DNA from: Chitinispirillales bacterium | GTDB lineage: Bacteria > Fibrobacterota > Chitinivibrionia > Chitinivibrionales > Chitinispirillaceae | Direction of reading: 5' to 3' | DNA: 49,137 nucleotides | Assembly: GCA_031283085.1 (NCBI GenBank) | Contig: JAITCM010000027.1 | Location: 1-49,137 of the forward strand | In this document: positions 10,920 through 14,577 of the stretch, in pieces | How positions within the stretch are numbered: position 1 is the first letter of the stretch | How the letters are laid out: every line of letters starts with the position of its first letter | Made by a program: the position numbers and the translations under genes | Notes under the pieces: model-generated | Seen by the model: only the letters and a program-made list of their open reading frames with translations | What the model was told of the DNA's origin: nothing | Database searches by the model: none

Positions 10920-11807
10920 TCACGAAATATTCATGCTCAAACCGACCGTCTGCGTCCCGCGGCACGCGCCGTTGAATACCCCGCGTTCTATCGAACAGTC
11001 GGCGAAGTCGCGGCCTCTGGATAAAGCTATGTAGCCTTCGTCTGTCAGTTTGTCGCGTGTGGGGTCTACGGCGCAGTATCTATCGCCGGTCCACGCCTCG
11101 ACCCAGGCGTGGGTTTCGCCGCAGTCGGAGGCGAGGCCGGCTACGTAGCGGCATGGGATTTTGTCCATACGCAACAGGGCGAGCAATATATGCGCGTAGT
11201 CCTGACAGACGCCCGCGCCGATGTCAAACGCCTCCGACGCCGTTGTTGTATTTGTGGTCGCGCCGCGTTCGTAACGCAGGCGGGCGTGGACGGCGTGAGA
11301 GAAGTGTTGAACGCGGTCTAACGCGTTGATTGTGGCGGAACGGTTTATATTATCGTTGATATTCTTGTTGATGCCGTCATTAATACCATTGTTGACACCC
11401 ATTCGGCTTCGACTTCGCTCAGCCATCCGGTCATTAATACCATTATTGACACCGTCATAAAAATCAGCAAGCCCGCGATGCGGGCGCGTCAATTCCGTCG
11501 GGTATAATAATACTCGCTGCGGCTCGTCGGACGATATGTACGGCTCGCCCGACACCTCCGCGACCCCCTCTGTTCCGAATCGGAACCGGCTGTGCGGGGC
11601 GCTGATATGCCCTGCCAGAACATCGTTGCCGAAACCGTCAACCGTCCGCCAAAGCGTGTCTGTCGGCGACGGGTCAATGTGCCACGACAAACTCTCTATC
11701 CGCTGCCTGCCGTCGCTCCGCGGCAGTATCCTCAGCAGAAAAGTATGCTCGGACGCGGGCGAAGAAAAAGCCAGCTCCGTTTGATATTGAAAACGAACGG
11801 TCTTCAA
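10920..11807 (-). CDS. Transglutaminase-like cysteine peptidase with bacterial transglutaminase N-terminal domain
   Basis: A 295-residue protein. The N-terminal ~90 residues are beta-rich and fit the bacterial transglutaminase-like N-terminal region (PF08379). The C-terminal half is a transglutaminase/arylamine-like domain with the triad Cys in GVCQDYAHILLAL, His in ETHAWVEAW and Asp in CAVDPT. Between them (about 125-165) is an odd low-complexity stretch containing two copies of GVNNGIND 18 residues apart plus further GIN/NIN units, caused by a DNA repeat at 11376-11453; the canonical family has only a short linker here. This family is regularly found next to circularly permuted ATP-grasp and alpha-E proteins, as it is here; the set is thought to make or process a peptide-like product. 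The start overlaps the alpha-E stop by 4 bp, so it is the last gene of the operon. Confidence 0.85.
   Translation of the reverse strand: MKTVRFQYQTELAFSSPASEHTFLLRILPRSDGRQRIESLSWHIDPSPTDTLWRTVDGFGNDVLAGHISAPHSRFRFGTEGVAEVSGEPYISSDEPQRVLLYPTELTRPHRGLADFYDGVNNGINDRMAERSRSRMGVNNGINDGINKNINDNINRSATINALDRVQHFSHAVHARLRYERGATTNTTTASEAFDIGAGVCQDYAHILLALLRMDKIPCRYVAGLASDCGETHAWVEAWTGDRYCAVDPTRDKLTDEGYIALSRGRDFADCSIERGVFNGACRGTQTVGLSMNIS
11376..11453. repeat. Direct repeat with embedded palindromic repeat motif inside the transglutaminase gene
   Basis: A 24-bp unit at 11376-11399 (GTCATTAATACCATTGTTGA plus CACC) recurs at 11430-11453 with one mismatch. The offset is 54 bp, or 18 codons, so the frame is kept. 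Between them, GGCTTCGACTTCGCTCAGCC (11404-11423) has GGCT/AGCC ends and looks like a dispersed bacterial repeat core. Weaker related units (ATTCTTGTTGATGCC) continue to the left. Confidence 0.75.
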
Positions 11808-12496
11808 GCGGCTTGCTCCTCCTCAAACAGACGGCTTAGGCTGTCGAGCACTTCGTCTAAGCGTGCCTTGTAACTCTCCTCTATCGCGAGGACCTCAACC
11901 AGCACCGCCAGATGCCGTGCGTTGCAGAAACCTTTGCGCACGCGCGAAAGCACGTGGCACAGCTTCTCGTACTCGCTGTTGATGAGTTTGTGGTCGTACG
12001 AGAATCTGAAATACAAATCAAGCCGCTCCACGAGTTTGCCGCACTTGACAATCGTCCGCGCCTCGCCGTTCGCCATTTTGTCGTCTACGCTGCCCCAAAA
12101 CGCGAGCAGGTAATCGATGGACGGCATCAGCGACAGGCGCGGGTTTTTGTCGCCGCGGCTCGCGTGGAAAGCGTCAACCGCGAGCTGGACGTAGGCAAGC
12201 GCCTCGCTGCCGATTACGTTCCGGCAGACAAGCGCGTTGTCGTGCGTGAAGCGAAGCGTCGAACTTACCGTGAAACATTCCGCGTCGTCGTACAGATACC
12301 CCCGTATGAAGCCGCGGTAATCGCCGTACCTGTCCTCAATTTCCAGTTTGCTCAGAAAATCTTTGTAAGAATCTTTATCCTTGTCGAGCGCTTTGTCGCA
12401 ATAATTGAAGAATATGTTGAGCGTGGTATAGGCGCGCTCCGCGTACCTTCCGAGCCAGTAAAGGTTTGAACTGTACTCTACCGAGATAGTACCCAT
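11804..12496 (-). CDS. Alpha-E domain protein
   Basis: A 230-residue helical protein of the alpha-E family (PF04168). It opens with ISVEYSSNLYWLGRYAERAYTTLNIFF, the characteristic N-terminal helix (NLYWLGRYxERA), and continues with DNALVCRNVIGSEALAYVQLAVDAF and FRFSYDHKLINSEYEKL. Typical members are about 300 residues, so this one is short. The family has no solved reaction and is known mainly from conserved clusters with circularly permuted ATP-grasp and transglutaminase-like genes. Here it overlaps the ATP-grasp gene by 19 bp and the transglutaminase gene by 4 bp, an order identical to that cluster. It is cytoplasmic, with no signal peptide or membrane segment. Confidence 0.88.
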   Translation of the reverse strand: MGTISVEYSSNLYWLGRYAERAYTTLNIFFNYCDKALDKDKDSYKDFLSKLEIEDRYGDYRGFIRGYLYDDAECFTVSSTLRFTHDNALVCRNVIGSEALAYVQLAVDAFHASRGDKNPRLSLMPSIDYLLAFWGSVDDKMANGEARTIVKCGKLVERLDLYFRFSYDHKLINSEYEKLCHVLSRVRKGFCNARHLAVLVEVLAIEESYKARLDEVLDSLSRLFEEEQAA

Positions 12497-13800
12497 GTGT
12501 CCTTAAACCCCCCTCCCTGCGAAGAATTGACAATGAACGACCCCTCCACGCGCGAGAAGCGGGTAAGCCCGCTTGCCCAAACGCGCGTGGCCTTGCCGGT
12601 CAGCACATACGCCCTCAAATCGGCTTTTCGGGGAATGACGCCGCCGTTCTCATCCATTATATCGAGGTCGATAAAATCAATGACCTCCTGCGATATGAAC
12701 CGCCTCGGCTCCTTTATGATGGTGGCCTTTAGTTCGGCCAATTTTTCCTCGGACAGACCGCTGCCGAATACCACGCCGTAACCGCCGGCCTCCGACACGT
12801 CCTTTATGACAAGGCGCCTGATGTTATCAAGCGTGAACTTCATGTCGTCTTCATAATAAGGCAGATACGTCGGCGCGTTTTGCAGTATCGGCTCTTCATC
12901 TAAATAGTATTTTATCATCTTCGGCACGAAATAATAGATACCCTTGTCGTCCGCGACGCCGTTGCCCGGCGCGTTGATGAGCGCCACGTTTCCGGCGCGG
13001 TAAGCGTCTACGATGTGCGGTACGCCGATAAGGGAATCCGCCCGGAACGTCATAGGGTCGAGGTACTCGTCGGAGATGCGGCGGTACACCGCGCCTACCC
13101 TCGCCTTGACGCCGAGGTAATCCTTCATATACAGGACAGCGTCCTCAACGGCCAGTTCCGACGCCTTGACGAGCAGCGCGCCCGTCCGCTCGGCTAAGTA
13201 CGAGTGCTCAAAGTACGCGGCGTTGTACCTGCCCGGCGTGAGGATGACGCTAAGCCCGCCGCGGTTCACGAAGTCCATAGTCTCGCGCAGCATATCCGAG
13301 TAGTTGCGGTTGTCCGCGACGTTGTTGTCGGAAAAGGCGTCGGGGTTGGCAATCCGGCACAGCTCCCGTGCTATCAGCGGGTAGGAGGCGCCCGACGGTA
13401 TGCGCAGGTTGTCTTCTAATATGTACCACGCGCCGTCCTTCGCCTGAACGAGGTCAATCCCGGAAATGTGGCTGTACACACCCGCCGCCGGGACAATGCC
13501 GCCACACTCCGGCAGGTACCCCTTGGAGATATAGACGAACTCCTCCGGCACGACCCTGTCGGCGATAATCGAGGCGCGTGAGTAGATGTCACGCAAAAAG
13601 CAGTTGAGCGCGTCTACCCGCTGGACGAGACCGCGGTCGAGCAGAGCGAACTCGTCGCGTGAAATGATACGCGGTATGGCGTCGTAAGGGAAGAGCTGTT
13701 CGATGAACTCCCCGTTCCTGTAAATACCGAACTTCACCCCGTACCGAGCCATGAGCCTGTTGATCTCGCGGGCGGTCGCCACAGTCACGGACATCTCCAT
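12478..13800 (-). CDS. Circularly permuted ATP-grasp protein (CP_ATPgrasp/DUF404-DUF407 family)
   Basis: A 440-residue protein whose motifs fit the circularly permuted ATP-grasp family (PF14403, formerly DUF404/DUF407). Seen are YNAAYFEHSYLA, VGAVYRRISDEYLDPM, NVALINAPGNGVADDKGIYYFVPKMI, RRLVIKDVSEAGGYGVVFG and a final basic KADLRAYVLTG. These supply the nucleotide- and metal-binding surface expected of an ATP-dependent carboxylate-amine ligase. The ATG at 13800 has a G-rich ribosome site upstream; the open frame extends to 13905 but that part would read through an intrinsic terminator, so it is not used. It is the first gene of a three-gene operon with alpha-E and transglutaminase-like proteins, a set proposed to form peptide-like compounds. 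The substrate is unknown. Confidence 0.88.
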   Translation of the reverse strand: MEMSVTVATAREINRLMARYGVKFGIYRNGEFIEQLFPYDAIPRIISRDEFALLDRGLVQRVDALNCFLRDIYSRASIIADRVVPEEFVYISKGYLPECGGIVPAAGVYSHISGIDLVQAKDGAWYILEDNLRIPSGASYPLIARELCRIANPDAFSDNNVADNRNYSDMLRETMDFVNRGGLSVILTPGRYNAAYFEHSYLAERTGALLVKASELAVEDAVLYMKDYLGVKARVGAVYRRISDEYLDPMTFRADSLIGVPHIVDAYRAGNVALINAPGNGVADDKGIYYFVPKMIKYYLDEEPILQNAPTYLPYYEDDMKFTLDNIRRLVIKDVSEAGGYGVVFGSGLSEEKLAELKATIIKEPRRFISQEVIDFIDLDIMDENGGVIPRKADLRAYVLTGKATRVWASGLTRFSRVEGSFIVNSSQGGGFKDTWVLSR

Positions 13801-13853: not shown

Positions 13854-13894
13854 AAAAAAAAGAGCAACGGCGCCCTGTCTGAGCGCCGTTGCTC
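13854..13894 (-). terminator. Promoter-proximal intrinsic terminator (possible attenuator) upstream of the ATP-grasp operon
   Basis: On the minus strand GAGCAACGGCGC (13894-13883) pairs perfectly over 12 bp with GCGCCGTTGCTC (13873-13862), loop 9 nt, followed at once by eight T (13861-13854). It lies between a candidate promoter and the first gene of the operon, about 54 bp before its start codon. Confidence 0.85.
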
Positions 13895-13911
13895 GCGTAC
13901 TTCATACTATA

Positions 13912-13940
13912 ATAATAATATAATTTACCCTAAAAATCAA
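13912..13940 (-). promoter_or_regulatory. Candidate sigma-70-type promoter of the ATP-grasp operon
   Basis: On the minus strand TTGATT (13940-13935) and TATTAT (13917-13912) are separated by 17 bp. A start site near 13905 would put the terminator stem only about 10 nt into the transcript. There is no other minus-strand gene upstream that this terminator could serve. Confidence 0.5.
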
Positions 13941-14094: not shown

Positions 14095-14577
14095 ATGAGC
14101 GGATTTATCGGAAGGAGGTGGGCGCTGTTGGTTGCTGCGGTAGCGGTGATATGTTGGTTGGGTTGCGGCGACGGGGGCGAAGACGAATCAAATCCGGGTG
14201 ATGTCCCTGCTAACGGCGGCCTTGTTTGTACCGATGGCGAAGCGTGGGTAAAGTGTGAGGTGAGAGATGGAGTGGAATTCTGTATCGGCTATATTTTCAA
14301 GTCAAACAGCGAGTTGATATTTATAGAACGTGAGGCCAATGTTTGGTACAAATACACAGACGGCGGATATAATTGGCGGATAGACGGAGACACTTTGATT
14401 ATATACGACGATGAAAACGCAGGTATTGTCACTTACAGCTTAACCGATAACGCGTTAACTCTTACGTTTGAGGGACAGCCGCAAACGTATACCAAAAGGA
14501 GCGGCGTGTATCCGAGATTGACGAAATCTCGCGCAAATACGGATATGTCGAAATTTCTTTTGAATTTGAAGAAATAG
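14095..14577 (+). CDS. Small lipoprotein, hypothetical
   Basis: A 160-residue protein with a lipoprotein signal: basic RRW, hydrophobic LLVAAVAVICW, then the lipobox WLGC with the Cys near residue 24, followed by an acidic flexible linker (GDGGEDESNPGDV). The mature part looks like a small beta-barrel or repeated beta-strand domain (WRIDGDTLIIYDD...YSLTDNALTLTFEGQ), as in lipocalin-like domains of Fibrobacterota/Bacteroidota lipoproteins; that assignment is tentative. A very strong ribosome site, AAGAAGGAGA, precedes the ATG by about 5 nt. The gene stands alone between two leader regions. Function unknown. Confidence 0.82.
   Translation: MSGFIGRRWALLVAAVAVICWLGCGDGGEDESNPGDVPANGGLVCTDGEAWVKCEVRDGVEFCIGYIFKSNSELIFIEREANVWYKYTDGGYNWRIDGDTLIIYDDENAGIVTYSLTDNALTLTFEGQPQTYTKRSGVYPRLTKSRANTDMSKFLLNLKK

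Follow-up and report, generated by a model that had tools for sequence, protein, structure and literature searches.

A terminator hairpin ahead of an ATP-grasp operon in a Chitinispirillales bacterium looks like a reduced ANTAR attenuator with a single recognition loop

The window, by which we mean the whole 49,137-nt stretch of Chitinispirillales DNA analysed here (genome G000), carries on its minus strand a three-gene operon encoding a circularly permuted ATP-grasp protein, an Alpha-E domain protein, and a transglutaminase-like protein (Table 1). To our knowledge, the product of this operon is not known, and the text of a paper on Anbu (PMC5666114) reportedly contains the ATP-grasp, alpha-E, and transglutaminase family names. 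Directly upstream lies the element under study, which a sequence-only reading had described as a perfect 12-bp stem with a T8 run about 54 nt before the first gene. This description holds on the minus strand, where arms 13894-13883 and 13873-13862 form a perfect 12-bp stem that grows to 14 pairs once an inner G-U and C-G pair are added, and the ATP-grasp ATG at 13800 begins 54 nt past the T-run. When folded as the plus strand, the 13854-13940 segment reaches -25.5 kcal/mol with a z score of -6.2, a value equalled by 0 of 200 dinucleotide shuffles; the minus-strand leader RNA folds as the terminator at -29.5 kcal/mol.

The promoter in the window is sigma-70-like but has only 9 of 12 consensus matches, a grade found at 6 sites in 3 kb versus 3.0 in shuffles. 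Judging from its -10 hexamer, transcription is expected to start near 13905, about 11 nt 5' of the stem, close to the ~10 nt predicted earlier. The interval from the element to the divergent plus-strand ORF, which begins at 14095, contains the end of no minus-strand ORF of 80 aa or longer, in agreement with the earlier view that no upstream gene needs a terminator at this place. The divergent ORF itself (14095-14577, 160 aa) begins like a lipoprotein by eye, and neither Pfam nor NCBIfam gave a match for it. Rfam at gathering score gave 0 matches in the window and tRNAs only in 20 loci, and sub-threshold matches such as L20_leader were taken as chance. A DNA repeat family was considered and rejected: the 12-mer arm occurs exactly at 3 other places in the genome, and with one mismatch at 44 places versus 46 for a reversed-pattern control.

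Table 1. Features of the leader and operon in the window, and genes identified behind a hexaloop element at other loci
Feature	Position or locus	Strand	Basis
-35-like hexamer TTGATT	13940-13935	minus	consensus match
-10-like hexamer TATTAT, 17-nt spacer after -35	13917-13912	minus	consensus match
Intrinsic terminator stem-loop, excludes P2	13894-13862	minus	fold, cross-relative pairing
Candidate P2 antiterminator hexaloop GAGC / AACGGC / GCTC (A1 = 13890, G4 = 13887)	13894-13881	minus	sequence, stem covariation
U-tract T8 of terminator	13861-13854	minus	sequence
G-rich likely ribosome-binding site, outside terminator	13815-13809	minus	by eye
Gene 1, circularly permuted ATP-grasp type 2 (PF14403), 440 aa	12478-13800	minus	Pfam
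Gene 2, Alpha-E domain protein (PF04168)	11804-12496	minus	Pfam
Gene 3, transglutaminase-like protein (PF01841, PF08379), TTG start	10920-11807	minus	Pfam
Type III glutamine synthetase (GSIII) genes behind hexaloop	L149, L160		Pfam
Ammonium transporters (AmtB) behind hexaloop	L164; L166 (G1 form)		Pfam
CarB behind hexaloop	L152		Pfam
Class-II GATase (GATase_2) behind hexaloop	L168		Pfam
Class-I GATase behind hexaloop	L150		Pfam
Peptidase C26/GATase behind hexaloop	L162		Pfam
Citrate synthase behind hexaloop	L169		Pfam
Aconitase behind hexaloop	L181		Pfam
DUF1989 behind hexaloop	L184		Pfam
Binding protein behind hexaloop	L159		Pfam
Two AraC-type regulators, one LuxR-type regulator, and a FUSC-family protein, not clearly nitrogen, behind hexaloop	L156, L170, L176, L163		Pfam

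Conservation of the leader in relatives, which the earlier reading had proposed as a check, is extensive. A scan with the ATP-grasp protein, one genome per species, confirmed 582 relatives, of which we used the best 80, Clostridia for the most part by their titles. With the window's own copy and two same-genus copies, these gave 83 upstream regions (3 with less than 160 nt upstream), and a strong terminator lies within 250 nt upstream of the ATP-grasp gene in 70 of them, compared to a mean of 0.9 of 83 over 20 rounds of dinucleotide shuffling. Three same-genus ATP-grasp copies besides the window's were found among 60 relatives searched, one of these copies being truncated where its contig stops, and one same-genus genome matches the promoter-to-hairpin block 13940-13855 at 84% of DNA positions. 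The terminator 5' arm is conserved in sequence, approximately AGCAARGGCGCUU, and the segment separating the two arms differs in length by more than 20 nt among loci. The stem carries double changes in 68 cells, with 97.5% of cells paired, pairing being in part a selection criterion. For more distant homologues from the phylum (L012-L017, ~43-45% identical), the 300 nt preceding the match contain no hexaloop terminator. The gene itself is patchily distributed. Within the genus, 4 of 8 genomes have it (the source genome included), as opposed to none of 16 further genomes searched from the family and none of 16 searched from the order's other families, while copies 80-83% identical occur in records labelled Treponema, Fibrobacteria, and Oscillospiraceae; together, these sequence patterns suggest transfer between gut phyla.

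Within the conserved 5' arm sits a second, smaller structure. The arm reads AGC / AARGGC / GCU, which is to say a 3-bp stem capped by a hexaloop whose first base is A and whose fourth is G, and this A1-x-x-G4-x-x hexaloop is the published ANTAR P2 signature. According to the literature, cited here and below from the portions of each paper available, the recognition unit of ANTAR antiterminators is an A1/G4 hexaloop on a short stem, and the hairpin termed P2 overlaps the terminator (PMC3369931, PMC8934654, PMC3369936). Adding genome G005 brought the set to 84 ATP-grasp leaders. A terminator is present in 71, and in 62 of those an A1/G4 hexaloop with a 3-bp stem overlaps the 5' arm, versus 23 of 199 other terminators in the same loci, several of which resemble further ANTAR sites by eye. 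Among the 9 leader terminators that miss the hexaloop rule, inspection by eye shows 4 that retain the loop with the outer pair lost and 3 that have G1; 13 of the 84 leaders are without an anchored element. Leaders L061, L079, L081, and L098 have G in place of A at hexaloop position 1, with G4 and the stem intact by eye. Two complete hexaloop-terminator units stand in tandem before the ATP-grasp gene in L053, L057, L059, L066, L068, and L089, as well as L100 by eye.

The P2 stem covaries. Rows for this comparison were chosen by the loop (A or G at 1, A or T at 2, G at 4), the preceding pyrimidine, and terminator pairing, leaving the outer two P2 pairs unused in the selection. Both outer pairs form in 58 of 65 distinct leaders, compared to a mean of 41.3 and a maximum of 49 in 5000 shuffles, through pair types that include AGC/GCU, AAC/GUU, GAC/GUC, CAC/GUG, and GGC/GCC. 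The terminator is able to extend over the P2 5' strand in only 8 of the 65. Since the outer pairs covary and the 5' strand lies mostly outside terminator pairing, the P2 stem seems to be maintained as a structure in its own right, apart from the terminator. These patterns also bear on the idea that the element is an inverted-repeat DNA operator bound by a repressor, for which its place directly downstream of the promoter would be typical and its arms are suitably conserved in sequence; however, an operator would not be expected to vary in inter-arm length as this element does or to be followed by a U-tract, and the three-base strand that covaries with the P2 3' strand lies mostly outside the repeat, which makes this explanation extremely improbable.

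In the window, P2 occupies the whole terminator 5' arm, so the two structures are mutually exclusive, and trapping P2 would abolish the terminator. P2 alone is worth -4.0 kcal/mol, and the leader with P2 enforced folds at -11.5 versus -29.5 kcal/mol as the terminator; termination would therefore be the default, and an ANTAR dimer would have to trap P2 as soon as it emerges. We consider the hairpin to be the terminator half of an ANTAR-controlled attenuator, a promoter-proximal switch with a single hexaloop, with a probability of about 0.8. In this mechanism, the polymerase would start ~11 nt upstream of the hairpin, and the first RNA made would form GAGC-AACGGC-GCUC with its A1/G4 hexaloop. 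A dimeric ANTAR protein bound to P2 would sequester the 5' arm of the terminator, letting the polymerase pass the U-tract and transcribe the three-gene operon, whereas without ANTAR on P2 the far stabler terminator would win and an RNA of ~50 nt would be released. Binding and antitermination are our inference; the likely regulator is the single ANTAR protein of G000, described below.

The earlier reading had left three options, namely attenuation, a small terminated RNA, or a processive-antitermination switch. Attenuation is the one that gains, through the embedded P2 hexaloop and the single ANTAR gene. A ~50-nt RNA would indeed form, but promoter, hexaloop, and gene follow one another in a conserved order, which argues for control in cis rather than for a separate small RNA. 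The stronger form of that option, in which a short trans-acting RNA is the main product, for instance an ANTAR sponge like EutX/rli55, could draw on the release of ~50 nt of hexaloop-bearing sequence and on single hexaloops discussed for EutX (PMC8934654). The hexaloop of such an RNA would be locked inside the terminator stem, given the fold energies above, and the element stays tied to the same gene in most loci, both of which make a trans-acting main product very improbable. As for processive antitermination, we saw no motif supporting a LoaP- or Q-like switch and set that option aside. The dfn leader controlled by LoaP likewise places a leader hairpin and a terminator ahead of a biosynthetic operon and uses a separate UNCG-tetraloop hairpin (PMC12691694), whereas the window leader 13854-13910 has one UACG only (13899-13896), stemless apart from a single closing pair by eye.

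The promoters of the leaders place P2 very near the start of the RNA. Of 64 leaders, 52 have a promoter with at least 10 of 12 consensus matches in the 75 nt preceding the element, compared to 1.9 in shuffles. The distance from the end of the -10 hexamer to P2 has a median of 12.5 nt (~6 nt of RNA) and does not exceed 26 nt in 49 of these 52 leaders, the distances being off by one base in many rows owing to the loop-anchored alignment. From these promoters, RNA would usually start 0-15 nt before P2, leaving little room for P1, the other hexaloop hairpin of ANTAR leaders. The same promoters weigh against a fixed terminator that works without a regulator, blocking stray transcription or setting a low constant level. 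A strong terminator does this with no partner, but with a strong promoter just upstream it would shut its own operon, and it would have no need for a conserved A1/G4 hexaloop or a covarying extra stem; we regard this explanation as improbable.

In the ANTAR leaders studied so far, both hairpins are needed, joined in eut by a linker of 5-12 nt (PMC3369931), and P1 is required in vivo for antitermination by EutV (PMC3369931, PMC8934654). In our sets, we looked for A1/G4 hexaloops whose end lies no more than 40 nt before P2; 3 of 68 operon elements have one, versus 3.2 in 200 shuffles, as does 1 of 29 other elements, versus 1.2 in shuffles. The eutP loci chosen as a positive control yielded no dual leader, so this P1 detector is without a positive from real sequence. 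Because no P1 rises above shuffle level, we do not claim membership in the canonical dual-hexaloop class, the definition by which two surveys were made (PMC3369931; for actinobacteria, PMC8164766). It is quite improbable that these are canonical dual-hexaloop leaders in which P1 escaped notice, either through a more distant start site or through degeneracy of P1 itself. The well-studied leaders (PMC3369931), the start site taken from promoter matches, and the eutP control all lend something to that explanation, while the shuffle-level counts of upstream hexaloops and the ~6 nt of RNA expected before P2 speak against it.

Compared with known systems, the single-hexaloop attenuator proposed here shares with the EutV (Enterococcus faecalis eut), NasR (nasF), and AmiR (amiE) leaders an A1/G4 hexaloop on a short stem that overlaps the terminator 5' arm, an ANTAR protein in the genome, and targets tied to nitrogen. 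It differs from them in having no P1 above chance and a terminator only a few nt from the expected start. The minimal ANTAR site of Walshe 2022 has one hexaloop as its binding unit, as here; in that proposal, single hexaloops are placed where the time limit imposed by the polymerase is absent, and P1 is still required for antitermination (PMC8934654), whereas here the single loop lies within the attenuator, and at many genes.

The source genome has a single ANTAR gene, above the Pfam cut-off (G000:C16:13179-13337, E 1.2e-15), and its 189-aa product combines a receiver-like domain, just under its own cut-off, with the ANTAR domain. One ANTAR gene was present in each of 15 genomes sampled via homologue loci, and G004, G005, G006, and G007 have an ANTAR gene as well; none was detected in G001, G002, or G003. 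In an alignment to EutV (6WSH/6WW6), K143, K149, E160, M172, and R175 are conserved in the G000 protein, and four contacts are changed (Y164 to His, R142 to Ile, N173 to Asp, and R177 to Thr). In EutV, Y164 stacks on G4, Y164 and R142 contact G4, and joint change of N173, R175, and R177 abolished binding (PMC8934654). Unlike EutV, 12 of 13 ANTAR proteins recovered (of 21) have His at the Y164 place, the thirteenth, from G024, being of a different architecture. The His-bearing subfamily comprises loci L106, L107, L108, L116, L119, L121, L123, L124, L127, L128, L129, and L130.

The receiver also departs from that of EutV. In the G000 protein, Tyr is aligned where the phosphorylatable Asp is expected, and among readable receivers that Asp was seen by eye in G060 only. 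As nearly all lack it, the receiver is probably a pseudo-receiver, which makes phosphorylation an unlikely signal; the AmiR receiver has been described as a pseudo-receiver too (PMC3369936). Gene order suggests another kind of signal. By motif, 12 of 21 loci have a glutamine synthetase gene immediately before the ANTAR gene, which Pfam confirmed in 10 of the 10 submitted from these 12. The same motif shows none in that place in G000, G006, G007, or G060. A PurF-like gene, recognized by motif only, follows the ANTAR gene in G000, G004, G005, G006, G007, and G060. A glnA-linked ANTAR regulator, NitR, has reportedly been described in Clostridium saccharobutylicum. Signal and signal direction are a matter of inference: since the ANTAR gene follows a glutamine synthetase gene in many relatives, the signal is probably nitrogen or glutamine status, and contact between the receiver and glutamine synthetase is our guess, made from the relatives' gene order, at how it might be conveyed.

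The element is not confined to the ATP-grasp operon. R1, a covariance model built from 56 elements, was run on 17 genomes, and we read 45 of its matches among the 67 matches listed, 9 of them ATP-grasp leaders. The other 36 comprised 25 with an A1/G4 hexaloop, 1 with the G1 form, and 10 with none. Matches L172, L183, L171, L147, L143 (G000:C95), L137, L138, L165, L167, and L173, which have no hexaloop by the rule, were not taken as sites. A hexaloop element precedes a GSIII gene in G000 (C23, R1 E 0.067) and also in G004, G005, G006, and, by direct reading, G061. Nineteen downstream proteins were checked by Pfam, and 16 of them stand behind a hexaloop (Table 1); within the genus, R1 scores the CarB and class-I GATase matches only weakly (E 0.087 and 0.113). 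In G061 (L023 1144-4314), an ammonium transporter gene, identified by Pfam, precedes the ATP-grasp gene, and a hexaloop terminator lies before the transporter gene, ~1.85 kb from the ATP-grasp start.

GSIII genes allow a comparison within genomes. The orthologues in G004, G005, and G061 carry the element, whereas no element stands in the 300 nt before the paralogues (53-58% identical; L190, L191, L194, L195) of G001, G002, G004, and G005, two of which (G004 and G005) are ANTAR-bearing genomes; for G003, 164 nt upstream were available. As a natural control, the same-genus genome G003 (70% complete), in which no ANTAR gene was found, has both the ATP-grasp gene (83% identical) and the GSIII gene (82%), and neither leader has the hexaloop element; its GSIII leader shows one G1 loop under a loose rule, with a proper U-tract absent.

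Over a wider range, R1 matches and ANTAR genes do not run in parallel. Among 60 relatives, R1 matches occur in 9 of 19 genomes with ANTAR and 16 of 41 without, so this broad co-occurrence test lends no support, and R1 failed as a specific detector over these relatives, as it also scores ordinary GC-rich terminators. A hexaloop check applied to 23 R1 matches of this search found a hexaloop in 3 of 18 matches read from genomes without ANTAR and in 1 of 4 from genomes beyond the genus that have ANTAR; in these 60 relatives, the ANTAR frames of other genera are longer, at 234-348 aa. L209 and L210 (G055 and G058, no ANTAR detected) share a near-identical hexaloop terminator, which could be a repeated element.

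Taken together, the element looks like one that works as an ANTAR attenuator in reduced form, with an unusual single recognition loop instead of two. We lean towards the wider view that many gut bacteria (Clostridia and Fibrobacteria- or Treponema-labelled relatives) run much of their nitrogen regulon by promoter-proximal single-hexaloop ANTAR attenuators with no need for P1, through an ANTAR protein that has a pseudo-receiver and a His at the G4-stacking place and whose gene often lies next to that of glutamine synthetase, and that the ATP-grasp operon is one target. Among the open-access papers listed, we found none that treats single-hexaloop attenuators of these bacteria or links the ATP-grasp operon to ANTAR control, and supplementary hit tables (e.g., those of Ramesh 2012) may hold single entries.

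Current models hold that two hexaloops are needed in vivo, while structural work puts the binding unit at one and has called for bioinformatics on single-hexaloop sites (PMC8934654). Survey models with a dual stem-loop (PMC3369931, PMC8164766) should miss single-hexaloop leaders of this kind. Dozens of natural leaders that seemingly have no room for P1 make the P1 requirement directly testable, in cultured Ruminococcus among others. These leaders, which no Rfam family matched, point to a nitrogen regulon of gut bacteria, and for the ATP-grasp/alpha-E/transglutaminase operon they offer a physiological hint, namely nitrogen status.
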